64,000 bases of DNA from positions 1 through 64,000 of the forward strand of contig JAHEZL010000016.1 in NCBI GenBank assembly GCA_023251095.1, given 5' to 3'. The notes under the pieces were generated by a model, which was not told the DNA's origin, did not search any database, and worked only from the letters and a program-made list of their open reading frames with translations. Shown in pieces: positions 917 to 27,387 of the stretch. Source of the stretch: Flavobacteriales bacterium. GTDB lineage: Bacteria > Bacteroidota > Bacteroidia > Flavobacteriales_C > GCA-002722245. Each line of letters starts with the position of its first letter. Positions within the stretch are counted from its first letter, which is position 1. A program made the translations under genes and the position numbers.

Positions 917-951
917 TAAAAAAGTATCAGCGGGGAGCTGATACTTTTTTT
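917..951 (-). terminator. Bidirectional intrinsic terminator in a divergent gap
   Basis: A 13-bp perfect stem (918-930 with 938-950) and a 7-nt loop, with A/T runs on both sides so that it reads as a terminator in either direction. It lies between two divergent genes, so no annotated gene ends here. On the minus strand it would end a short transcript started near 1001. Confidence 0.8.
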
Positions 952-1001
952 ACACTCTACATCACGGGTAAATAAATGTAGATTACACTATTAACTACTA
1001 C
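918..1001 (-). ncRNA. Candidate small RNA A (orphan promoter to terminator unit)
   Basis: Predicted from signals only. A tandem repeat (1044-1051 and 1066-1073, period 22) lies 28 bp upstream of a -7-like box TACTTTTA (minus strand, 1008-1015). An intrinsic terminator follows at 918-951. The implied RNA is about 84 nt, has no reading frame with a start and more than two codons, and contains a second hairpin (CTACAT pairing with ATGTAG) before the terminator. It could instead be an attenuated leader of the downstream DJ-1-like gene. Confidence 0.4.
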
Positions 1002-1043
1002 TTACTGTAAAAGTAAAACAGGTCTGCGTTTTAAGAAGATATT

Positions 1044-1073
1044 ATTGTACAGAAATGAGGGTAAGATTGTTCA
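1044..1073 (-). promoter_or_regulatory. LytTR-like tandem direct repeat, copy a
   Basis: ATTGTACA (1044-1051) and ATTGTTCA (1066-1073), period 22 bp. On the minus strand they are followed after 28 bp by TACTTTTA (1008-1015), one mismatch from TAnnTTTG. The same layout occurs at four other places in the window. On the plus strand a box TAATTTAG (1076-1083) directly follows, so the beta-helix gene may also be affected. Confidence 0.5.
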
Positions 1074-1133
1074 CTTAATTTAGGGGGGCACGAAAAAGTG
1101 TTATCTTACATCAAATATTTATTTACAGATAAT

Positions 1134-15338: not shown

Positions 15339-15977
15339 TTAATAAGCTAAATCGGAAATTAATTGTCCGGAAGACTGCATAAGATGCTGCTTCATTTCTT
15401 GCGCACCATATTCACTTACAATTCCCGAAAGATGATATTTCACCGCTTCATTATATAACTCTGCCAATTGGAATTTTGAAAAAGGAAAAATCCTTGAATC
15501 AAAAATGACAGCTACTTTAAAAATGTATAATCGCGTAATCACTTCTATTGAAAAATCCTTTTTATACAAACCTTCTTTTATTCCTTTTTTTATGTTGGAT
15601 AAAAAAGTGTTGTACAAAAACTCATTCCTGTAATTCTCACAATACTTCCATGCTTCAGGATAATATTGTTGCAAATCAAAATACAGGGATGGATGAACAT
15701 TCAATAAATTATTGTATTCAAAATTTTTTATCTCCCACAATTCCTCAATAGCGTTTAAATTTTTAGAAAGAATGCCCTTAATAACTTTAACATCACCGGC
15801 CAATTTCCATTGCATTGATTTCGCTACCAACTCCGGTCGGTCATCCACATATTTATACAAAGTTTTTTTAGAGACTTTCAATTCCCTGGACATTAAATCC
15901 ATGGTAATGTTTTTGATTCCATACCTAAGATATACCTCTGTGGTTCTTTGATACAAGGCAAATTCACGATCTTCCAT
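15339..15977 (-). CDS. TetR/AcrR-family transcriptional regulator
   Basis: 212 residues. The N-terminal 50 residues form the TetR helix-turn-helix (YLRYGIKNITMDLMSRELKVSKKTLYKYVDD), and the rest is an all-helical ligand domain with no recognised family. It leads a two-gene operon with an aldo/keto reductase. The promoter is well defined: -7 box TAACTTTG (minus strand, 15997-16004), 19 bp before the ATG, and a 21-bp-period direct repeat 27 bp further upstream. The same arrangement controls the glucan operon, so this regulator is itself a target of that control. Confidence 0.87.
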   Translation of the reverse strand: MEDREFALYQRTTEVYLRYGIKNITMDLMSRELKVSKKTLYKYVDDRPELVAKSMQWKLAGDVKVIKGILSKNLNAIEELWEIKNFEYNNLLNVHPSLYFDLQQYYPEAWKYCENYRNEFLYNTFLSNIKKGIKEGLYKKDFSIEVITRLYIFKVAVIFDSRIFPFSKFQLAELYNEAVKYHLSGIVSEYGAQEMKQHLMQSSGQLISDLAY

Positions 15978-15996: not shown

Positions 15997-16060
15997 CAAA
16001 GTTAAGCCACGCTGCATTTTTAAATAAAAATATCGTTCAGAAATAGTACAAAATCATCCA
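15997..16060 (-). promoter_or_regulatory. tetR promoter with LytTR-like tandem repeat, copy e
   Basis: -7 box TAACTTTG (15997-16004 on the minus strand). Upstream, after 27 bp, lie ATCGTTCA (16032-16039) and ATCATCCA (16053-16060), period 21. The 21-mer at 16035-16055 is identical at 20 of 21 positions to one upstream of the glucan operon (17467-17487), reading both in the direction of transcription. Confidence 0.65.
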
Positions 16061-16066
16061 CTAAAA

Positions 16067-16713: not shown

Positions 16714-17025
16714 TTAGGGTTTGGTAAACTTTTCAGAAAAGGCATCTTTGCCTGAAAACAGTTTCAATACATAATTTCCTGCGGGCAATTGCTGCACATT
16801 TATTATTTTATCAAAAGAGCCTGTAGGGTTCTCAAAATCATTATCATAAACCACATAGCCCTCAACATCAACAATGATGATATTTACAAAAGCAGCTGTA
16901 GTTGCTTTTACTTTTAAGGTTTGTGATGCATACTCTATCTTAAAAGAATCCTTAACAAAGCTGTTCTGCGCATGTAATGCTGTTGACAACAGTCCGATAA
17001 ATATGAATAAGAAAAGTGCTTTCAT
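16714..17025 (-). CDS. Small exported protein resembling a free-standing T9SS sorting domain
   Basis: 103 residues with a signal peptide (MKALFLFIFIGLLSTALHAQ). The remaining ~80 residues (TAAFVNIIIVDVEGYVVYDN, QQLPAGNYVLKLFSGKDAFSEKF) are the pattern of a T9SS type A C-terminal domain or DUF3244-like beta-sandwich, but no cargo domain precedes it. It may be a T9SS-exported binding module or a decoy tail. The promoter shows tandem repeats at 17067-17096 and a box TAACTTAG at 17030-17037 that almost touches the ATG, so the mRNA would be nearly leaderless. It heads an operon with the poly-Thr lipoprotein. Confidence 0.7.
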   Translation of the reverse strand: MKALFLFIFIGLLSTALHAQNSFVKDSFKIEYASQTLKVKATTAAFVNIIIVDVEGYVVYDNDFENPTGSFDKIINVQQLPAGNYVLKLFSGKDAFSEKFTKP

Positions 17026-17029
17026 CTCA

Positions 17030-17096
17030 CTAAGTTAATTACAGAAGCAGGTAGAGACAGGATCGTTTTGTACAGAAAAGAGGTGAGAATTGTACC
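17030..17096 (-). promoter_or_regulatory. Promoter with LytTR-like tandem repeat, copy b
   Basis: TTTGTACA (17067-17074) and ATTGTACC (17089-17096), period 22; then 29 bp to TAACTTAG on the minus strand (17030-17037), one mismatch from TAnnTTTG. It drives the 103-residue exported protein. Confidence 0.5.
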
Positions 17097-17106
17097 GGAG
17101 AAAATA

Positions 17107-17182
17107 CACTCCGTCATTGCGAGGAACGAAGCAATCGTATCGTGGTTGATGAGATTGCTTCGTTCCTCGCAATGACGGAGTG
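17107..17182. repeat. Palindromic REP-like repeat, copy 2 (perfect 30-bp arms)
   Basis: Arms 17107-17136 and 17153-17182 are exact complements with a 16-nt loop. The core CATTGCGAGGAACGAAGC is the widespread Bacteroidota repeat. Its translation gives peptides such as RHCEERSN, which marks false ORFs. Confidence 0.9.
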
Positions 17183-17189
17183 GGCACAC

Positions 17190-17227
17190 AAAAAAATCCC
17201 ACGCTTCTCCCTCAAGAAGCATGGGAT
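17190..17227 (-). terminator. Orphan intrinsic terminator (minus strand)
   Basis: Stem ATCCCA-x-GCTTCT paired with AGAAGC-x-TGGGAT (one mismatch) and a 6-nt loop, followed on the minus strand by seven T. No gene ends here; the nearest upstream start is the promoter at 17327-17334. Confidence 0.75.
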
Positions 17228-17320
17228 AGGGGTAATCAAATTCAACCAATTATTATGAACCCTTCAGTTCAATCACCCGCACTTACATTTACTAGGTAAG
17301 GATCTTTATAATATTTTTTG
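17190..17320 (-). ncRNA. Candidate small RNA C (orphan promoter to terminator unit)
   Basis: A -7 box TATCTTTG (minus strand, 17327-17334) with tandem repeats 29 bp upstream and an intrinsic terminator at 17190-17227 imply an RNA of about 130 nt. No start codon in it opens a frame that ends before the terminator with more than a few codons. Sequence similarity to candidate RNA A is not obvious outside the promoter. Confidence 0.45.
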
Positions 17321-17326
17321 ATGACA

Positions 17327-17392
17327 CAAAGATAATTGCACAAGCTCCTTTTGTCAGAGCACAATCATTCAGAAAACGTTCAGTATTGTACG
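17327..17392 (-). promoter_or_regulatory. Promoter with LytTR-like repeats, copy c (three half-sites)
   Basis: ATCATTCA (17364-17371), AACGTTCA (17375-17382) and ATTGTACG (17385-17392); the outer two are 21 bp apart. The middle one extended by a G fits the LytTR consensus [TA][AC][CA]GTTN[AG][TG]. The -7 box TATCTTTG (17327-17334) follows after 29 bp. Confidence 0.6.
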
Positions 17393-17461
17393 GAAATTCA
17401 ATAATCAATTTCACGCATACTTATATATAACAACAAAAATTACATCCTCTGATTTAAAGCG

Positions 17462-17526
17462 TGAATGATTTTGTACTCTTTCTGAACAATTATCACAGGC
17501 CTGCGAAAAGACAAGGTTTAACTTTG
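17462..17526 (+). promoter_or_regulatory. Glucan-operon promoter with LytTR-like repeat, copy d
   Basis: TGAATGAT (17462-17469) and TGAACAAT (17483-17490), period 21, then 28 bp to the -7 box TAACTTTG (17519-17526). The first gene starts at 17563. No TTG-type -33 element is seen, as expected for an activator-dependent promoter. Confidence 0.65.
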
Positions 17527-17562
17527 ATTCAACACCAATAAAACCATTATAATTCAAAAGAT

Positions 17563-18144
17563 ATGATGCTAAAATTTAAAATAATCGCCTTGTTTACCCT
17601 GCTGACCGGTATTTTTTCCTTCACAGCGCTTCAAGAAGAAATTGAACCCTATTACATTTATTCTGATTCCTGGAAACATGGAATCCCTTCCGGTTTTATG
17701 GGAGAAAAAAATGGCGCAAGCATGAAAATCAGCGAGAGCAAAGACTCTCCATACCTAGGTGAAAAATGCGTGAAAATAACTACCGATAATTCTGAAGGAT
17801 GGAGAGGTATTCATATTCAATACACAGGTTCATGGAACGTAGCATTAAAACCCGATCAAAAACTTCCGGATCTCTCTGCTTACGATAAATTGGAGTTTTA
17901 CGCCCGTGCGGAAGAAACTGAAAACGGCAACTACATATTGCAAACCATTGGTGTTGGCGGCGGCGGCGCTCCCGAAGATCAAGTAGATGAAACCTATCTG
18001 GAAATTACTCCTAAATGGAAAAAATTCAGCATTAGCCTAAAAGGCCACGACTTCAAGAGAGTGAATACTTTATTATACATGGTACTTCCTGTTGGAACAC
18101 TCTATTTAGATGAAATCAGATTTGTGAAAAAAATTAAAAACTAA
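17563..18144 (+). CDS. Exported beta-sandwich, carbohydrate-binding-like protein
   Basis: 193 residues (start at 17563 or the next codon, also ATG). It has a signal peptide ending near FSFTALQ and no lipobox cysteine. The mature domain (GFMGEKNGASMKI, LGEKCVKITTDNSEGWRGIHIQY, YDKLEFYARAEE, KWKKFSISLKGHDF, LYLDEIRFVKK) has the galactose-binding-like fold of many carbohydrate-binding modules, with several tryptophans and tyrosines suited to glycan stacking. It is a paralogue of the poly-Thr lipoprotein encoded on the other side of the control region. It is the first gene of the glucan operon, 19 bp before the GH16 gene, so a glucan-binding accessory role is likely. Confidence 0.72.
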   Translation: MMLKFKIIALFTLLTGIFSFTALQEEIEPYYIYSDSWKHGIPSGFMGEKNGASMKISESKDSPYLGEKCVKITTDNSEGWRGIHIQYTGSWNVALKPDQKLPDLSAYDKLEFYARAEETENGNYILQTIGVGGGGAPEDQVDETYLEITPKWKKFSISLKGHDFKRVNTLLYMVLPVGTLYLDEIRFVKKIKN

Positions 18145-18163
18145 GCACCCTAAACCATAGCTT

Positions 18164-19066
18164 ATGTACTTAAAAAAATATTTTCGATTAGCTGCCGTCC
18201 CATGTCTTGCCTTACTCTCTTTGAGTAGCTGTTCAACAGCAGCTTTTGTTGAACAACCCGATTTGTATCAATCGGCATCAGATGTAATTGCAGTTGACAA
18301 CACCACCACTACCGACAATGGATATAAACCGGCAACTAAAAAAAGCGGCTGGAATTTAGTGTGGACAGATGAATTTGATCAGCCTCAAATTGATACTAAT
18401 AAATGGAGCCATGAGGTAAACGGCGATGGCGGCGGAAATAACGAACAACAATACTACACAGCCTCCAAAGCAAACTCCTATATCAACAACAATAAGTATT
18501 TGGTTTTAAAGGCAATCAAACAAAATTACAAAGGAAAATTTTACACTTCTGCGCGAATGAGGACGAAGAAAAAAGCCGATTGGACTTATGGTCGTTTTGA
18601 CATTCGTGCGAAGATCCCTGTACAACAAGGTGTGTGGCCGGCGATATGGATGCTGCCTACCGACTGGGTTTACGGGCCATGGCCGCAAAGCGGTGAAATT
18701 GATATTATGGAATCCATCGGTCACCAGCCAACAACAGTTTATGGTACTATTCACTATGGTGATGCATGGCCCAACAACAAACACATTGGTGATACAACCA
18801 TCATTCAAAAAGGAGATTTATCTACCGACTTCCATGTATTCTCTGTAGAATGGGAACCCAATGAAATCCGCTGGTATTTTGATGATGTATTGTATTCTAC
18901 AAAGAAAAACACAGATGTTACTCCTCACAAATGGCCCTTTGATCAAAACTTTCACATGATCCTCAATTTAGCAATTGGCGGTGAATGGCCGGGACCTCCT
19001 GATGACAATACCACTTTTCCAAAATACATGTTTGTGGATTACGTACGCGTTTACAAAAAAATATAA
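18164..19066 (+). CDS. GH16 endo-beta-glucanase lipoprotein (laminarinase-like)
   Basis: 300 residues. The lipoprotein signal ends SLSSC (Cys23), and a Thr/Asp-rich linker runs to about residue 60. The GH16 jelly-roll domain starts at LVWTDEFDQPQID and contains the catalytic GEIDIMES (nucleophile Glu178, Asp180, acid/base Glu183), WPAIWMLPTDW and the closing FVDYVRVYKK. The extra Met in EIDIME is the beta-bulge form typical of laminarinases (endo-1,3-beta-glucanases) rather than lichenases. It cuts beta-1,3 or mixed-linkage glucan, probably as an outer-surface anchored enzyme. It is the second gene of the operon and pairs with the GH3 at 23795, which would finish the oligosaccharides. Confidence 0.92.
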   Translation: MYLKKYFRLAAVPCLALLSLSSCSTAAFVEQPDLYQSASDVIAVDNTTTTDNGYKPATKKSGWNLVWTDEFDQPQIDTNKWSHEVNGDGGGNNEQQYYTASKANSYINNNKYLVLKAIKQNYKGKFYTSARMRTKKKADWTYGRFDIRAKIPVQQGVWPAIWMLPTDWVYGPWPQSGEIDIMESIGHQPTTVYGTIHYGDAWPNNKHIGDTTIIQKGDLSTDFHVFSVEWEPNEIRWYFDDVLYSTKKNTDVTPHKWPFDQNFHMILNLAIGGEWPGPPDDNTTFPKYMFVDYVRVYKKI

Positions 19067-19091
19067 ATACTCATTATAACCACTCGAAATA

Positions 19092-21053
19092 ATGCATATT
19101 AAACTAAATAAAAAAAGAATTCTGTCTTTACTGCTTGCATGCAGCATGAGCATTACCGCTACTTATGCGCAAACAAATTCAGATTCTACAAAGAAGTCGG
19201 CTCCTGCATGGACGCTGCAAAGAGCATCCCTTGTAAGAGACAATGCCTCTGACGGAATTACTAATGTTGTGGATAAAAATCTGTTCAAGGATTTCCTCAG
19301 CGGGCTCGTTGCCGGAGGTTATTACAGAGGTTTCTTTTACAGCAGAGACATGGATCAATTGTATGGAAATCCAAACGGAGCAAAACACATAAGAAGTGTT
19401 GGCGACGGTTATTTTGATCCTACCATGCTTTTGTATGTGGGTGGCAATCCTACTTCCAAAACAAGTTTTGGAACCGAATTAATTATTGGAAATCCTTTCA
19501 ATTTATACCAAGGGCCGGGAATGGGTACTCCGGGAAATGTGAGTCCGTTTTTTACTGCAGTTTTAAGAGGAGCCATCGACACTAAAATTGGCAACTTCTT
19601 TTTAATTGCAGGGGGGATTGAATGGCAACGCCTCACTCCTTTTACTTTTGGCTCCAACACAGGATTCAACAGATACAGCATTTATGAAAGACGTCCGTGG
19701 GATCCAACCGGAAATATAAAAAGCAGATATTCTTCTTACTATTATAACGGATCCATCACTCAGGATGCCCGTTGGGGAACCCAGGCTTTTAAAGGATTTA
19801 TGCTGACCGGTTATGTAAAAAAACTAAAAACAAATATTGATGTTTTTTACGGACGTACGGGAGCCAATGGCGGAATCAGCAGAGAAAATGAAGTTCGTCC
19901 TTCTCAGAATTTAGGCATCAGATTAAAGAAAAATCTGAAAAAAAATAATTATGTGAGCTTGAATACTTTCAATTCTTTCAATAGATCCGACAGTGTTAAC
20001 TCCAGCAATGATGTGCAATGGAACATTATAACATCAGAATTTTCCTTTAAATGGAAAGACATTAAACTCAGTGGTGAAGTAGGCGCAGGAAGATATGTGA
20101 GTCCCTCCTATCCCGAAAACTGGAGCGAAGGATTAATTTTCGATTTACAGATTCCTAAAAAATACACTTTCATTCCTTTGGATTTCCGCTATTTCGAAAT
20201 AGGAAAAAGTTTCACCAGCAATGTGGCCAGCTTTAACAACACCACCATACAACAAGTGTATACAGGATACAACAGCGCAGCAGGCAATGGCGGTGTGATT
20301 GCTCCTTTCGGTCCTTCAGCAGATAATGTTGGTGATCTCGCCAACAACAGAATGGGCGGAGCAGTGAACACCAATTTCAAATTGTGGAAATTCATGATTT
20401 CAACAGGTATGCAGATTTCTGCTGAAATGGAAATCATGCCCAATGCAAGCGTGTTAAACTGCAGTCACAGAATCAATGGTTTGCTTTGGTCGAGATTACC
20501 CGGCGTATTCCCTCTTTACGGCACTTTCGGTCCCAACAACAGAGTTGCCACTTACTACCGTGGTGCTTATGAAAAAGTGAATGTAACCGATTTAACCAGC
20601 GGATTCGTTACCAACAGAAGATATTTCAACTCTTTTGATTTCCAGGCAAAATATAAAATGACTTTATTTCAAAGAGATTTATATATCAACTATCTGGGAA
20701 CCTTCAACTCTGTTCAAAAAACATTTTCAGGTTTTACCGTGTTTGACAACAGCGCTTACATCAGAGCGCAATATCATGAAATGGATATTTACTATCAATT
20801 GCATAAAAATTTCATCATCACCCTTTATGGCGGATTGGAAACTATCCAGGGAAATCAGGATACCGATCTAGGCACGAATAATCTTCCAAGAGATCAGATG
20901 GGAAAAGCCTTTGGAGCCGGTTTCGATTTAACGCTTTCCAACCAGGCTACATTGTACTTCCGTGAGAGATGGTTCTCTTTTGAAGATGTGAATTTCGCTA
21001 CTGAGAAATTTTCTGGAAATGAAGGCACAGTGGAATTAAAAATAATGTTTTAA
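19092..21053 (+). CDS. Large outer-membrane beta-barrel protein, non-TonB
   Basis: 653 residues with a signal peptide ending ATYAQ. The rest is a series of amphipathic, aromatic-rich beta-strands (GGYYRGFFYSRD, NNYVSLNTFNSF, FDFQAKYKMTLFQRDLYINY, NFIITLYGGLETIQGN), and the protein ends GTVELKIMF, the terminal phenylalanine of outer-membrane barrels. There is no TonB box, no plug domain and no CarboxypepD_reg domain, so it is not SusC. I do not recognise a named family. It lies between the GH16 gene and a second barrel gene (gap 11 bp), in the place where a SusC/SusD pair would be expected, and may be the glucan porin. Confidence 0.7.
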   Translation: MHIKLNKKRILSLLLACSMSITATYAQTNSDSTKKSAPAWTLQRASLVRDNASDGITNVVDKNLFKDFLSGLVAGGYYRGFFYSRDMDQLYGNPNGAKHIRSVGDGYFDPTMLLYVGGNPTSKTSFGTELIIGNPFNLYQGPGMGTPGNVSPFFTAVLRGAIDTKIGNFFLIAGGIEWQRLTPFTFGSNTGFNRYSIYERRPWDPTGNIKSRYSSYYYNGSITQDARWGTQAFKGFMLTGYVKKLKTNIDVFYGRTGANGGISRENEVRPSQNLGIRLKKNLKKNNYVSLNTFNSFNRSDSVNSSNDVQWNIITSEFSFKWKDIKLSGEVGAGRYVSPSYPENWSEGLIFDLQIPKKYTFIPLDFRYFEIGKSFTSNVASFNNTTIQQVYTGYNSAAGNGGVIAPFGPSADNVGDLANNRMGGAVNTNFKLWKFMISTGMQISAEMEIMPNASVLNCSHRINGLLWSRLPGVFPLYGTFGPNNRVATYYRGAYEKVNVTDLTSGFVTNRRYFNSFDFQAKYKMTLFQRDLYINYLGTFNSVQKTFSGFTVFDNSAYIRAQYHEMDIYYQLHKNFIITLYGGLETIQGNQDTDLGTNNLPRDQMGKAFGAGFDLTLSNQATLYFRERWFSFEDVNFATEKFSGNEGTVELKIMF

Positions 21054-21064
21054 AGAAATTACAA

Positions 21065-22804
21065 ATGAAAAATTTACACCTATACTTTATGAATAAAAAA
21101 GCAATAGTACTTTGTTTCGTCCTCTTTAACATTCATTTGATGAATGCCCAGGATGATAAAATTAAATTTGGCGCATATGCCCGTGCATTGCAACAAAGCA
21201 ATACGCTCGGCAAATCCGATACGCTGAATCCCGACAATACCAGCAAAGGAAATGTATTACTGGACTTGGGACTCAACATCAATCCCGATAAAAAAACGGA
21301 AATTCAGGCCATTATCCGTTTCAACAATAATTTCAGCGGATTTTATACTGCAGGAGCTTCTGCCTCTTTGCGTCAGTTATACGTGAAAGGTATTGTAGGT
21401 AAATATTTTAATTACCAAGTGGGTGATTTGTACCTGAAATTAACTCCTTACACTTTCTTTAATAACAACGCAGAAGGATCTGTTAACGAAGCCGGTATTT
21501 TTAGCGACTTACGTAGAGATTATACCAACTACGAAAACTTAAGCAACAGAGGAAATGCCTGGTGGCAGCAAGGTGCAGCTACTAACTTTGCCATTTCATT
21601 TTCAAACTCTATTATTGATACTTTGAAAGTGGATGCTTTCTTCCTAAGAAACAGAGCGAGTTATGCGCAACTGCCTTCTTCTTTTCATGCTGGTGGAAAA
21701 ATCACGGTAACTCAGGGTCCGCGATTAAAACTGGCTTTCAATTATCTTGATCTTTATGATCTTGGTTCTAATGTTAAAATTGACAGTTTAGCAAAAAGCA
21801 ATCCTGTAGGTTCGGGAGAAATTGATTTAAAAATAATCAACGGAAAAAATGTTCAGCTCGCTTTAATTGGTGAAGGTGGTTTCTCTTCTTATGTTTTTAA
21901 AGGCGATACCGCTCAAACAAAATCAGGTTTCTTTTATGATGCCGGATTACAACTCAATTTAAAACCTCAAAATTTAATTGTTACGGCAAATTACACTTAT
22001 GTTGATCCGCTGTTTTACAGTGCAGCTGCACAAACCAAACGCGTAAATTATGGCAACACCCCTACTACCCTTGCCAACTACGGAAATGATCCTAAAAACA
22101 TCATGACCCGCGGCATTACTGTTTTTGATCTGGTAAGAGATCCTTCTGTTTACAATCAGGGAATTGTAAGAAATTTAATGGCCTACAATCCAATTTACGG
22201 CAACGCACAACCTTACGGAAAAGCCACTCCTAACCGTACAGGCATAGAGTTGAATGTACAATACAAAGATTCTTTGCAAAAAATTGTAGCCGATGTTGAC
22301 GCTGCTTTTTTATCTGATATAGTAGGAGAAGGTTCTGCTGAATTGAGAAGTTTTATTGTTTTAAAAGGTGGAATTGATTTTAATATCCATAAATTTTTCG
22401 ACTGGAAAAAAAGATTGATTTTAACCACAGGCTATAAATTTGAATCTACCAACCGTGGTGGTGACGCTCTTCAGGCGGTTAGCTTAGTGAATAATCTTGT
22501 TGACCTTGGCTTGGAAATTGAAGCCATCAAAAAATTCAGCTTCCTCGTAGGTTTTAAAATGCTGACTGCTCAGGGGAATGAATTTGTTGCAGTACGAAAT
22601 CAATACAACGATATCACCAACTACACGCCAATGGCCAATATAAACGTTGCTCAAAACATTTTTGCCTTTGGTTTGAAATACCGTTTCAGTGATAAAACTT
22701 ATCTCACTGTACAAAATCATATGTTCGATTACAAAGACAACACCACAGCAACAAACAACTATTCCATCAATCAGGTTTTAGTAATGTTCAACATGAACTT
22801 TTAA
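21065..22804 (+). CDS. Second outer-membrane beta-barrel protein, unknown family
   Basis: 579 residues; the ATG at 21089 (MNKKAIVLCFVLFNIHLMNAQ) gives a cleaner signal peptide than the first ATG at 21065. The mature part reads as a beta-barrel: FGAYARALQQS, VLLDLGLNINPDKKTEIQAIIRF, FNYQVGDLYLKLTPYTFF, LTTGYKFES, IFAFGLKYRF, and the last strand ends LVMFNMNF with a terminal Phe. N-terminal barrel strands and a 'dose of oligomer' comparison region resemble porin-like proteins of the Bacteroidota that are sometimes annotated as DUF-type OM proteins; no firm family. It is the second of two adjacent barrels and probably works with the first in glycan uptake or display. Confidence 0.65.
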   Translation: MKNLHLYFMNKKAIVLCFVLFNIHLMNAQDDKIKFGAYARALQQSNTLGKSDTLNPDNTSKGNVLLDLGLNINPDKKTEIQAIIRFNNNFSGFYTAGASASLRQLYVKGIVGKYFNYQVGDLYLKLTPYTFFNNNAEGSVNEAGIFSDLRRDYTNYENLSNRGNAWWQQGAATNFAISFSNSIIDTLKVDAFFLRNRASYAQLPSSFHAGGKITVTQGPRLKLAFNYLDLYDLGSNVKIDSLAKSNPVGSGEIDLKIINGKNVQLALIGEGGFSSYVFKGDTAQTKSGFFYDAGLQLNLKPQNLIVTANYTYVDPLFYSAAAQTKRVNYGNTPTTLANYGNDPKNIMTRGITVFDLVRDPSVYNQGIVRNLMAYNPIYGNAQPYGKATPNRTGIELNVQYKDSLQKIVADVDAAFLSDIVGEGSAELRSFIVLKGGIDFNIHKFFDWKKRLILTTGYKFESTNRGGDALQAVSLVNNLVDLGLEIEAIKKFSFLVGFKMLTAQGNEFVAVRNQYNDITNYTPMANINVAQNIFAFGLKYRFSDKTYLTVQNHMFDYKDNTTATNNYSINQVLVMFNMNF

Positions 22805-22814
22805 TAAGGAAAAT

Positions 22815-23780
22815 ATGAAGAACTTATCTTTAATATCCATCAGCATGATTTCCCTTATAATATTTGGGGTGTCCTGCTCAAAAGAAAAATTAGGTCCCGA
22901 TATTTCATCAATCAACGGTCCGGTTACTATTGTTGAACCCTTTAGCAAAAGCACAGGCACTGTTGATTTTTCAAACAATGAAGAAGTATATTTTACTGCT
23001 AAATTTGAAAAAGAAACCGATTGGACAGTTACCCTTATCGGAAATACAAGTGGCGCCACAAAAACCATTGAAGGCGTTTCAGCAGTCATTAGCAAAACAA
23101 ATTCAGGATGGTTTGGAACTGCGAATACTGCTCCTTCTTTTCAAGTGGAAACAGTAACTGCACGATTAACATTTAAGCACACTACAGATACATTTAACAC
23201 AACCCTTACTGTTACGGCAACTAAAAATCTTGATCAAAACGATGTATTGATTACTGATTTTTCTACTTTAAAAAGTGCTACACTGTGGCCAAGAGATTGG
23301 CCTCCGGTGAGCATTACTAACACATCTTATCCTAAGGCAGATGGCGGTAAATATTTTTACATGTCGGGTACTCCTTGGCAAAGCGGTTCGCCATATGTCA
23401 ACTACATGACCATTCCGGCAAAATTTTATTCTGACGATAGCACCATCACTCATTATCCTGTAAACCCTGATGCCGACAGAGTTTTTTTCAATATTATGGT
23501 GTACGGTAACGGTCCATCTGACACATGGTTACTCGTTAATTTTTCGGAAGACGGAGTACAGGCCCGACATTTAAATATCCGTCCGGATTGGACAGGCTGG
23601 AAATTGATAAGTGTTCCATACACTTCCCTTCTTCCCGATATTACTACCGCTGCAAAACCAAACAAATTAACAAGCGTTGCTTTTGTTTTATTGTCGGATG
23701 CCGCGCTTCCTTCTACTAAATCGGTTTCGGTTGCCTTTGACCATCCAACATTTACTTTAAATCAACCTTATCAACCTTAA
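22815..23780 (+). CDS. Surface lipoprotein, two-domain glycan-binding-like (SGBP analogue)
   Basis: 321 residues. The lipoprotein signal ends IFGVSCSKEK (Cys21). Residues ~30-135 form an Ig-like strand-rich domain (DFSNNEEVYFTAKFEKETDW, RLTFKHTTDTFNTTLTVTA). Residues ~140-321 form a jelly-roll domain (VLITDFSTLKSATLWPRDWP, RVFFNIMVYGNGPSDTWLLVNFSED, DWTGWKLISVPYTSL, VSVAFDHPTF) rich in tryptophan. This Ig-plus-lectin layout is that of surface glycan-binding proteins in polysaccharide utilisation loci, although no named family is recognised. It lies 10 bp after the second barrel and 14 bp before the GH3. Confidence 0.68.
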   Translation: MKNLSLISISMISLIIFGVSCSKEKLGPDISSINGPVTIVEPFSKSTGTVDFSNNEEVYFTAKFEKETDWTVTLIGNTSGATKTIEGVSAVISKTNSGWFGTANTAPSFQVETVTARLTFKHTTDTFNTTLTVTATKNLDQNDVLITDFSTLKSATLWPRDWPPVSITNTSYPKADGGKYFYMSGTPWQSGSPYVNYMTIPAKFYSDDSTITHYPVNPDADRVFFNIMVYGNGPSDTWLLVNFSEDGVQARHLNIRPDWTGWKLISVPYTSLLPDITTAAKPNKLTSVAFVLLSDAALPSTKSVSVAFDHPTFTLNQPYQP

Positions 23781-23794
23781 AATAAAAATCAGCC

Positions 23795-26041
23795 GTGACT
23801 TTGAAATTTATATCCGCATCCTTACTATGTGTTTTTTGCACAACTTTAAATGCACAGCAAAACGACACCGAAGCTAAAATTGATAAATTGATTTCGTCGA
23901 TGACCCTCGAAGAAAAAGTAGGGCAAATGACGCAACTTACTTTAGCAATGGTATGCAAAGGAGAAGCTTTTGATGACAAAAAAAACATTGAAATTGATCC
24001 GGTTAAACTGGATTCTGTTTTATTAAAATATCACGTTGGTTCAATTTTAAATACCGGCACACATACTTTACCAAGAGAAAAATGGTATGAATTGATTACT
24101 CAAATTCAAAAAGTAGCCGCTGAAAAAACAAGATTGAAAATTCCGGTTTTGTACGGAGTAGATGCCATTCATGGAGCTACCTATACTCAAGGCTCTACCC
24201 TCTTTCCACAGGAATTGGCAATGGCTGCAACATGGAATCCTTCATTGGTTGAAAAGGCCGGAGCCATCTCCGCTTACGAAGTACGAGCTTCTGCTATTCC
24301 ATGGAATTTTTCCCCGGTTTTGGATTTAGCACGACAACCTTTATGGTCGCGGTTTTTTGAAACTTTTGGTGAAGATCCTTACCTCGCAACGCAAATGGGA
24401 AATGCCATTGTTCAAGGATATCAAGGCAAAGATTTCAACCATCCCGAAAAAGTAGCAGCTTGCTTAAAACACTATGTGGGCTATAGCTTTGCTTTCAGCG
24501 GAAAAGACAGAACACCTATCCTGATGCCCGAAAGATTACTGAGAGAATATTACCTCGTGCCTTTTCAAAACGCCATTAAAAACGGCGCAATGACAGTGAT
24601 GGTAAATTCCACTGAAATTAACGGAACTCCGGTTCATGCGGATTACCACATCCTCACAGAAATTTTAAAACAGGAATTGAATTTTCAAGGTTTTGCTGTT
24701 ACCGATTGGGAAGATATCATTATGTTGCATACCGTTCATAAAATTGCACCTACTTACAAAGATGCTATTGCAATGGCCATCAATGCCGGAATTGATATGA
24801 GCATGACTCCTTTAGATGTTTCTTTTTGCAAATTGTTAACTGAACTCGTTAAGGAAGGCAAAGTACCAATAAGCAGAATTGACGATGCCGTGAGAAGAAT
24901 CCTTCGCGTGAAATATAAACTGGGATTGTTTGAACATCCTTACTATGAAATGAAATCTTACCCGAAATTCGGATCAGCTGAATTCGCAGAGCAAAACTTA
25001 CAAACTGCTTTAGAGAGCATCACACTTTTAAAAAACAAAAACGACATTTTGCCTTTAAGCAAAAACAAAAAAGTTTTGGTAACAGGTGTTGCTGCCAATT
25101 CATTAAACCCTTTGAATGGCGCATGGACCCACACCTGGCAAGGTGTTGAAACAAAATTTAATCCTACAAACAAAAAAACAATTCTTCAGGCTATGCAAGA
25201 TGAAATCGGCGGAGATAAAGTTGTGTTTGTACAAGGAACCGATTACGATAAAGATCTGAATATAGCTCTCGCTGTGAAAGAAGCACAAAATGTGGATTAT
25301 ATTATTGTGTGCTTAGGAGAAAAACCAAGCACTGAAAAACCGGGTGATATTGATGATTTAACTATGGACAAGGCCCAACTCAACTTAGTAAAAGAATTGG
25401 CCAAAACAGGAAAACCTATCATCTTGGTTTTAGCTGAAAATCGACCACGCATCATCTCTGAAATTGAACCTTTGGTAGACGCCGTTGTAATGACTTATCA
25501 TTTAGGCAATGAAGGCGGACGAGCTATCCCTGAAATAATTTTCGGCGATGTCAATCCAAGCGGAAAATTACCTTTCACCTATCCGAGATTCACAGGATCA
25601 TTCTCCACTTACGATTACAAAGCTTCTGAAACCAGAGATCAAACTTTTGGCTTCAATGAAATCAATCCTCAATATACTTTCGGTTCAGGATTGAGCTACA
25701 CCAGATTTCAGTATAGTAATTTAACGATTGATAAAAATAAAATCAGTGAATCCGACAGTATTAAAGTTTCTGTTGAAGTCACCAATACCGGAAGCAGAGA
25801 AGGAAAAGAAGTGGTGCAACTGTATGTGCGCGATGAATACGCCAGCATCACCCCATCGAACAAACGCCTGAAAGGATTTTCAAAAGTAAATCTCAAAGCA
25901 GGAGAAAGCACGGTTGTTACTTTTATCATTCACCCTAAAGATTTGGCTTTTGTAAATGCAAAAAACGAATGGCTAACTGAAGCCGGTGATTTTACCGTGA
26001 TGATTGATAAAATGAGTAAAGGGTTTTTGTTGAGTAAATAA
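23795..26041 (+). CDS. GH3 beta-glucosidase, exported
   Basis: 748 residues starting at GTG 23795; the start is supported by the signal peptide that follows (KFISASLLCVFCTTLNAQ). Domains in order: the (alpha/beta)8 barrel with GVDAIHGATYTQGSTLFPQE, KHYVGY (225-230) and nucleophile Asp304 in VTDWEDI; the alpha/beta sandwich with LLKNKNDILPL and GEKPSTEKPGD; and a C-terminal FnIII-like domain (VEVTNTGSREGKEVVQLYVRD). It releases glucose from beta-linked oligosaccharides, probably in the periplasm. It is the last gene of the glucan operon and is followed by an intrinsic terminator. A paralogue with a lipoprotein signal lies at 55046. Confidence 0.95.
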   Translation: MTLKFISASLLCVFCTTLNAQQNDTEAKIDKLISSMTLEEKVGQMTQLTLAMVCKGEAFDDKKNIEIDPVKLDSVLLKYHVGSILNTGTHTLPREKWYELITQIQKVAAEKTRLKIPVLYGVDAIHGATYTQGSTLFPQELAMAATWNPSLVEKAGAISAYEVRASAIPWNFSPVLDLARQPLWSRFFETFGEDPYLATQMGNAIVQGYQGKDFNHPEKVAACLKHYVGYSFAFSGKDRTPILMPERLLREYYLVPFQNAIKNGAMTVMVNSTEINGTPVHADYHILTEILKQELNFQGFAVTDWEDIIMLHTVHKIAPTYKDAIAMAINAGIDMSMTPLDVSFCKLLTELVKEGKVPISRIDDAVRRILRVKYKLGLFEHPYYEMKSYPKFGSAEFAEQNLQTALESITLLKNKNDILPLSKNKKVLVTGVAANSLNPLNGAWTHTWQGVETKFNPTNKKTILQAMQDEIGGDKVVFVQGTDYDKDLNIALAVKEAQNVDYIIVCLGEKPSTEKPGDIDDLTMDKAQLNLVKELAKTGKPIILVLAENRPRIISEIEPLVDAVVMTYHLGNEGGRAIPEIIFGDVNPSGKLPFTYPRFTGSFSTYDYKASETRDQTFGFNEINPQYTFGSGLSYTRFQYSNLTIDKNKISESDSIKVSVEVTNTGSREGKEVVQLYVRDEYASITPSNKRLKGFSKVNLKAGESTVVTFIIHPKDLAFVNAKNEWLTEAGDFTVMIDKMSKGFLLSK

Positions 26042-26187: not shown

Positions 26188-27288
26188 TTATCTCAATACA
26201 TAATTCGTACTTCTTCCCCCTTCTTCTCCTTTTTTCAATATTTTTTTATCCATCAAATCCTGAATATCACGTAATGCCGTATCTGCTGAGCATTTAGCAA
26301 TTTTAGCCCATTTGGAAGAAGTGAGATTTCCCTCAAACCCATCGAACAATTTATTAATCAGCAAGCGTTGCCTTTCATTGATAGCAGCGGAAGTTTGTTT
26401 GTCCCAAAATTGCGCTTTTTTTAATACTCTTTTAAATGTTTCTTCAGTAGTATCTAAAGCTCCATCCAAACAATTTAAAAACCACTGTAACCACTCAGTG
26501 ATATCCAATGTTCCTTTTTGAGTTTTTTCGAGTATCTCATAATACTTATTTCTCTCCTTCCGGATTTGTGCCGACATACTATAAAAACGATGTTGATCAC
26601 CATCTGACCTCGCGAGTTGCATATCAGCTATTGCACGTGCAATCCGTCCGTTTCCATCATCAAAAGGGTGAATTGTTACGAACCATAAATGTGCTATAGC
26701 TGCTTTTAATACAGGATCTAAAACCTGTTCAGCATTGAACCATTTTAGAAAAACTTTCATTTCCTTCTCCAGAATATCCCCTTCCGGAGCTTGATAATGA
26801 ACGCGTTCACGCCCCATTGAACCAGAAACTACTTGCATAGGACCTTTATTGCTGTCCCGCCAATCGCCAACAATTATTTTATGCATACCACTTCTCCCCG
26901 ATGGAAACAAGGCCGAATGCCAACCAAACAAACGATCTTTGGTTAAAGTTTTATCGAAATTCTGAGTGGCATCCAACATCATTTCCACAACTCCATCAAT
27001 ATTTCTGTCGGAAGCAACAAGTCCGGCAATATCCATTCCTAAACGACGTGCAATAGATGATCGCACCTGATCAGGATTTAATATTTCTCCTTCGATTTCT
27101 GTAGATTTTAAAACATCAAGAGTAAGCGTTTGCAATAGCGTTTCGTTTTTTATTGCAAAACCCAGCACTTCCATATAGCCTTTCAATCGCCCCTGCTTAT
27201 GTCTGACCTTAGTTAAGGAAGGGATTAAGACAGTATTATCCCAGTTGAATTCCGGCCAATTTTTTAATTGATGAATGTATTTTGCCAT
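26188..27288 (-). CDS. Fic/DOC family AMP-transferase with DUF4172-type N-terminus and winged-helix C-terminus
   Basis: 366 residues from the ATG at 27288 (MAKYIHQLKNWPEFNW); an upstream ATG-containing extension to 27321 runs into the operator array and is unlikely. The Fic motif HPFDDGNGRIAR is at 207-218. The inhibitory helix motif STEIEG (S-x3-E-G) is at 62-67, making it a class II Fic protein whose glutamate keeps it inactive until relieved. The C-terminal ~80 residues (LLINKLFDGFEGNLTSSKWAKIAKCSADTALRDIQDL) form a winged helix-turn-helix. It would transfer AMP to a target protein hydroxyl. The promoter carries four copies of TTCTCCGCA, which suggests autoregulation by the C-terminal domain. 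No toxin-antitoxin partner is seen. Confidence 0.93.
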   Translation of the reverse strand: MAKYIHQLKNWPEFNWDNTVLIPSLTKVRHKQGRLKGYMEVLGFAIKNETLLQTLTLDVLKSTEIEGEILNPDQVRSSIARRLGMDIAGLVASDRNIDGVVEMMLDATQNFDKTLTKDRLFGWHSALFPSGRSGMHKIIVGDWRDSNKGPMQVVSGSMGRERVHYQAPEGDILEKEMKVFLKWFNAEQVLDPVLKAAIAHLWFVTIHPFDDGNGRIARAIADMQLARSDGDQHRFYSMSAQIRKERNKYYEILEKTQKGTLDITEWLQWFLNCLDGALDTTEETFKRVLKKAQFWDKQTSAAINERQRLLINKLFDGFEGNLTSSKWAKIAKCSADTALRDIQDLMDKKILKKGEEGGRSTNYVLR

Positions 27289-27291
27289 ATT

Positions 27292-27387
27292 ATTCTCCGC
27301 ATATTTGCGGTAAATATACACGATATTCTCCGCACAAACAATTTATTCTCCGCATTTTTGCGGAGAATAAAGCGATTGTTCTCCGCA
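27292..27387. promoter_or_regulatory. Four-copy operator array upstream of fic
   Basis: Copies of [A/G]TTCTCCGCA start at 27292, 27325, 27345 and 27378. Copy 1 has a partial complement (TGCGGTAAAT), and copy 3 is part of a perfect 28-nt palindrome (12-bp arms 27343-27354 and 27359-27370, loop TTTT). They lie between the fic start codon and the upstream gene. Confidence 0.75.

Follow-up and report, generated by a model that had tools for sequence, protein, structure and literature searches.

The direct repeats described here have counterparts in other bacterial regulatory systems. In Bacteroides, the motifs predicted for HTCS regulators take the form of direct repeats, 21 bp on average (Ravcheev et al. 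2013, PMC3878776), and in the 1,3GUL system of that genus an HTCS serves beta-1,3-glucan loci that contain GH16 and GH3 genes (PMC7157763). AgrA-like regulators of the LytTR type also bind paired direct repeats (PMC4227749).

The present regulon resembles the Bacteroides HTCS regulons in its AraC-type hybrid proteins and direct repeats of about 21 bp, in the use of one motif for paralogous HTCSs of one locus, and in the inclusion of some distant operons; as far as the motif goes, this likeness is one of repeat layout. It departs from them in that its outer-membrane proteins have no Pfam match and form no evident SusC/SusD pair, and in that its predicted targets lie in three places and comprise, besides T9SS/CHU_C proteins and L-type lectins, a tetR-like gene and two short transcripts that end in terminators. 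With 1,3GUL it shares the combination of HTCS, GH16 and GH3 for beta-1,3-glucan, but here GH81, GH128, GH30 and lectin genes occur in dispersed clusters and no HTCS lies beside the GH16/GH3 operon. The similarity with LytTR/AgrA systems extends to paired direct repeats upstream of promoters and to a period of 21-22 bp; however, the half-sites fit poorly, and it is HTCS genes rather than a LytTR gene that are linked to the sites.

Our contention is that the repeats are probably operators of an AraC-type HTCS regulon for beta-1,3-glucan, read by one or both of two paralogous proteins, HTCS1 and HTCS2. This would supply a candidate regulator, a binding site and a promoter geometry for beta-1,3-glucan use in a genus of Bacteroidota beyond the gut species already studied.

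Direct repeats and promoter geometry

A sequence-only reading of the window (the whole stretch of 64,000 nucleotides that was analysed) had reported five tandem repeats with a 21-22 bp period, and all five are present. They share the pattern WTYRTWCAGAAA-N9/10-WTYRTNC with a half-site period of 21 or 22, and in every one of them GAAA, a feature absent from that reading, directly follows the first half-site. The leftward transcript RNA2 is preceded by a predicted site at 1044..1074 on the forward strand (half-sites 1044/1066; ATTGTACAGAAA-N10-ATTGTTCAC, period 22), with a -7 box, TACTTTTA, at about 1008-1015 (-). The site of the tetR-like gene occupies 16032..16061 (+; 16032/16053; ATCGTTCAGAAA-N9-ATCATCCAC, period 21) and its box, TAACTTTG, about 15997-16004 (-), while the gene starting at 17025 is preceded by a site at 17067..17097 (+; 17067/17089; TTTGTACAGAAA-N10-ATTGTACCG, period 22) with its box, TAACTTAG, at about 17030-17037 (-). 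The RNA1 site spans 17364..17393 (+; 17364/17385; ATCATTCAGAAA-N9-ATTGTACGG, period 21), contains an extra half-site, AACGTTCAG, at 17375, and has its box, TATCTTTG, at about 17327-17334 (-). Finally, the glucan operon has a site on the reverse strand at 17461..17490 (ATTGTTCAGAAA-N9-ATCATTCAC, period 21) and a box at 17519..17526 (+), again TAACTTTG, 28 bp away. The stretches 16035-16055 and 17467-17487 are identical at 20 of 21 positions, as had been claimed, and the fixed orientation is also borne out: each of the five sites reads opposite to its putative transcript and away from the gene it precedes.

The proposed spacing from a box TAnnTTTG, or a one-mismatch form of it, holds throughout, the distances being 28, 27, 29, 29 and 28 bp, with the box coming after the site in the direction of transcription. 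Under a composition-shuffle null, a box matching at least five of six positions at 27-29 bp has a probability of about 0.028 per site, and its presence at all five window sites one of about 2e-8. Across 16 sites collected from three places in the genome, all with a period of 21 or 22, the box stands at this distance in 14 (nominal p about 2e-20); six of the 16 were picked up by relaxing the pattern that the first eight had yielded, two more by a PWM scan only, and the box played no part in finding any of them.

The strict pattern has eight matches in the 3.59 Mb genome, five of which are in the window, against none for a reversed control. A looser pattern has 23 matches, also against none reversed: five in the window, eight on contig C27 (124.8-160.9 kb), four on contig C43 (82.9-109.9 kb) and six scattered, although these searches may have missed less well matching sites in other parts of the genome. 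The C43 sites and some of those on C27 depart from the strict pattern, with CACAAA or CATAAA. Half-site pairs in the window plus C27 show a peak in period at 21 and 22 that is not seen in other loci of the same genome, and the spacers vary from site to site, which argues that the repeats are not simply copied DNA. In a search of 395 genomes of the class, a strict form of the motif gave nothing but isolated single matches outside this genome, and the exact motif was not found in congeners. A weaker site with correct box spacing was noted at position 16893 (-) of another locus (L020), upstream of a small gene (16966-17490, +) that by eye reads like an isopentenyl-diphosphate isomerase and whose membership of the regulon is uncertain.

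Candidate regulators and rival explanations

Both candidate regulators are encoded on C27, HTCS1 at 128.8-132.9 kb (1345 aa) and HTCS2 at 148.5-152.5 kb (1328 aa), and both therefore fall inside the C27 site cluster. HTCS1 carries Reg_prop, Y_Y_Y, HisKA, HATPase_c, Response_reg and AraC-type HTH_18 domains in a single chain; HTCS2 is 73% identical to it over 1348 columns and 81% identical in the DNA-binding domain. Both retain SHIP, a portion of the S/CHIP-DK motif that has been connected with DNA binding dependent on phosphorylation (PMC11253607). One C27 site lies between HTCS1 and a divergent GH16 gene and another between HTCS2 and GH81. On this contig the sites precede genes for L-type lectins, T9SS proteins, GH16-CBM6 and GH81, the last followed by GH128-CBM6. 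On C43 a GH81 gene and the genes of two large T9SS proteins of GSDH type stand behind sites, with GH30, GH16 and a lectin nearby. Beta-glucan content is common to the places where the sites cluster, and judged by their families the C27 and C43 enzymes, like the GH16 and GH3 of the window, are probably directed at beta-1,3-glucan. Since C3 and C43, the other two site-bearing contigs, carry no HTCS gene, the link there is one of motif and function only. The earlier suggestion that the regulator is encoded outside the window is supported.

In congeners, the candidate regulators and the exact motif are both missing. Among 60 relatives, congeners included, HTCS1 and HTCS2 have no counterpart above 42% identity in the DNA-binding domain. 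Another HTCS of the genome, HTCS3 on contig C1, has orthologues of 79-93% in congeners, so the absence of HTCS1 and HTCS2 there is specific. Around more distantly related HTCSs (80 named loci and further relatives, with DNA-binding domains at most about 52% identical) the motif is not enriched over other periods, and the pairing is consequently without cross-species footprint support. A generic scan for repeat plus box around HTCS3 and HTCS4 was uninformative, its threshold having also missed known sites.

The regulon itself is real, and the question is what reads it. The sequence-only reading was correct in seeing one regulon of 21-22 bp repeats at a fixed -7 distance that spans the glucan locus together with the tetR-like gene and two short terminated RNAs, but its attribution to a LytTR response regulator is not supported. 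Nine LytTR domains are present in the genome, and one of these proteins might bind the repeats and activate all units; three of them (L010, L013 and L016) have no close congener orthologues, so that their distribution does not speak against them, and the period would suit half-sites of 9 bp separated by 12-13 bp. Yet that period is met by LytTR and HTCS motifs alike and so does not discriminate between them. None of the nine is encoded on C3, C27 or C43, and the 12-20 kb neighbourhood of every LytTR gene in this genome contains no convincing site, a 20.2-bit match on L025 falling within a reading frame some 6 kb away. Six of the nine have orthologues of 78-95% in congeners without the exact motif. 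The LytTR consensus is [TA][AC][CA]GTTN[AG][TG]. Against this consensus the half-sites match at a mean of 6.2 of nine positions; all 32 have T at position 2, never A or C, and only 9 of the 32 contain GTT. Individual half-sites such as ATCGTTCAG do reach eight of nine. The half-site that had been offered as fitting the LytTR consensus, AACGTTCAG, is the exception. With two HTCS genes instead lying among the sites, we have dropped the LytTR label and regard a LytTR regulator as quite improbable.

It is also unlikely that the sites belong to a different regulator, such as the third HTCS of C27 (C27:16719) or a stand-alone AraC protein. The genome has ten HTH_18 domains, four of them in proteins of HTCS length, and HTCSs as a class typically have direct repeats of roughly 21 bp; however, over 100 kb separate C27:16719 from the C27 sites, no motif match was found beside it, and HTCS3 is conserved in the congeners that lack the motif. 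The remaining suggestion, that the repeats reflect chance or an inherited promoter repeat with no regulator, would draw on the AT-rich character of intergenic DNA and on the fact that, for half of the 16 sites, the patterns or PWM that recovered them had been fitted to the first eight. It is very hard to credit in the face of the counts against reversed-pattern controls (8 vs 0 and 23 vs 0), the period peak, the box spacing at 14 of 16 sites and the differing spacers. HTCS1 and/or HTCS2 are accordingly the most likely regulators of this regulon, the protein-DNA pairing being one that we infer.

In proposing a mechanism, we envisage that HTCS1 and/or HTCS2 would sense glucan fragments in the periplasm through their Reg_prop/Y_Y_Y regions, as members of this family do, and would then phosphorylate their own receiver. 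A dimer of AraC domains could bind two WTYRTWCRG half-sites 21-22 bp apart, such that the promoter-proximal half-site, extended by GAAA, would sit on the upstream side of the Bacteroidota -7 box at a distance of 27-29 bp, and at this spacing the bound HTCS may help RNA polymerase to start. On C27 and C43 the targets switched on would be the GH16, GH81, GH128 and lectin genes; in the window they would be the GH16/GH3 operon, the tetR-like gene, the T9SS-tail gene and the two short terminated RNAs. Activation rather than repression, and glucan as the signal, are likewise inferred.

The glucan operon and other putative targets in the window

The glucan operon (17563..26041, +) begins with a gene for an exported protein of 193 aa and includes GH16 (at 18164) and GH3 (at 23795). 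By inspection, the products of 19092 and 21065 are putative outer-membrane beta-barrels and that of 22815 a likely lipoprotein; there is no evident SusC/SusD pair, and the outer-membrane proteins match no Pfam family. Directly 3' of the operon, on the opposite strand, there is a gene for a DUF4172-Fic domain protein (26188-27321, -). The gene at 15339..15977 (-) keeps its earlier label of TetR-like, although it has no Pfam match and its NCBIfam similarity to TetR-type regulators is weak. A third putative target, 16714..17025 (-), encodes a secreted protein of 103 aa with a T9SS sorting tail (Por_Secre_tail); the position of the -7 box of its site implies that its mRNA would be leaderless, which counts against the proposal.

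A paralogous glucan operon is present on contig C2 of the same genome (56-82% identity per gene), and orthologous operons occur in two congeners, G003 and G004. The best pair scores upstream of the C2 paralogue and the congener operons are 8.4, 0.9, 3.9 and 14.5, compared with 23.4 in the window and a shuffled maximum of 12.8; the copy scoring 14.5, on contig 75 of G004, is weak. The sequence-only reading had named conservation upstream of orthologous genes as a point on which its proposal might fail, and there is indeed no strong site at the congener operons, but genomes without the regulator would be expected to lack its sites. The two operon copies in one genome, with sites on one only, offer a natural pair for the study of HTCS target capture. 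A different upstream block, TTATCAGTACTTTAGCGTAG, is conserved between the C2 copy (L203) and the orthologue on C48 of G003 (L204), and is possibly the site of another regulator.

Two predicted short terminated transcripts

RNA1 (17190..17321, -) would start at about 17321 and end at an intrinsic terminator at 17227-17196, and RNA2 (918..1003, -) would start at about 1003 and end at one at 950-918; both transcripts are predicted from the combination of site, -7 box and intrinsic terminator, the last located by a terminator scan. RNA1 folds more stably than its shuffles (z-score -3.6), while the value for RNA2 (z -0.5) was obtained from a stretch with the terminator cut off and is little informative. 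RNA2 lies upstream of a DJ-1/ThiJ-like gene (136-891, -) and may be either an RNA in its own right or that gene's terminated leader. An Rfam search of the window returned no match, which places both RNAs outside the described families. RNA1 was not found in ten relatives. Its 3' part and terminator do have a second copy in the same genome, at 51769-51823 of contig C15 (L224:1480-1560), with 90% identity over 58 bases; the upstream region of this copy is different and has no evident site, and the two may constitute a small paralogous RNA family.

Small RNAs adjoining polysaccharide loci are known from Bacteroides, DonS being an example (PMC7366714). Those of the DonS type are antisense to susC, whereas RNA1 and RNA2 are not. 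A duplex search of both RNAs against 276 gene starts gave best z-scores of -3.4 and -4.0, which are not significant; the top-scoring partner of RNA2 is a CHU_C gene of the C43 cluster, and this is a lead only. A bolder reading, less likely than not, is that an HTCS that senses glucan acts directly on two small non-coding RNAs, inducing them alongside its enzymes and a tetR-like gene, and that the window operon is a duplicated copy newly captured by this regulator while the C2 copy is under other control. If so, glucan sensing would have a built-in post-transcriptional arm, and RNA1 and RNA2 can be tested as regulator-driven small RNAs. Between the site at 17067 and the RNA1 terminator lies a near-perfect palindrome of REP-type appearance (17105-17187; CACTCCGTCATTGCGAGGAACGAAGCAATC...GATTGCTTCGTTCCTCGCAATGACGGAGTG), and CGTCATTGCGA is seen also in another locus (L219), where it ends the stretch examined.
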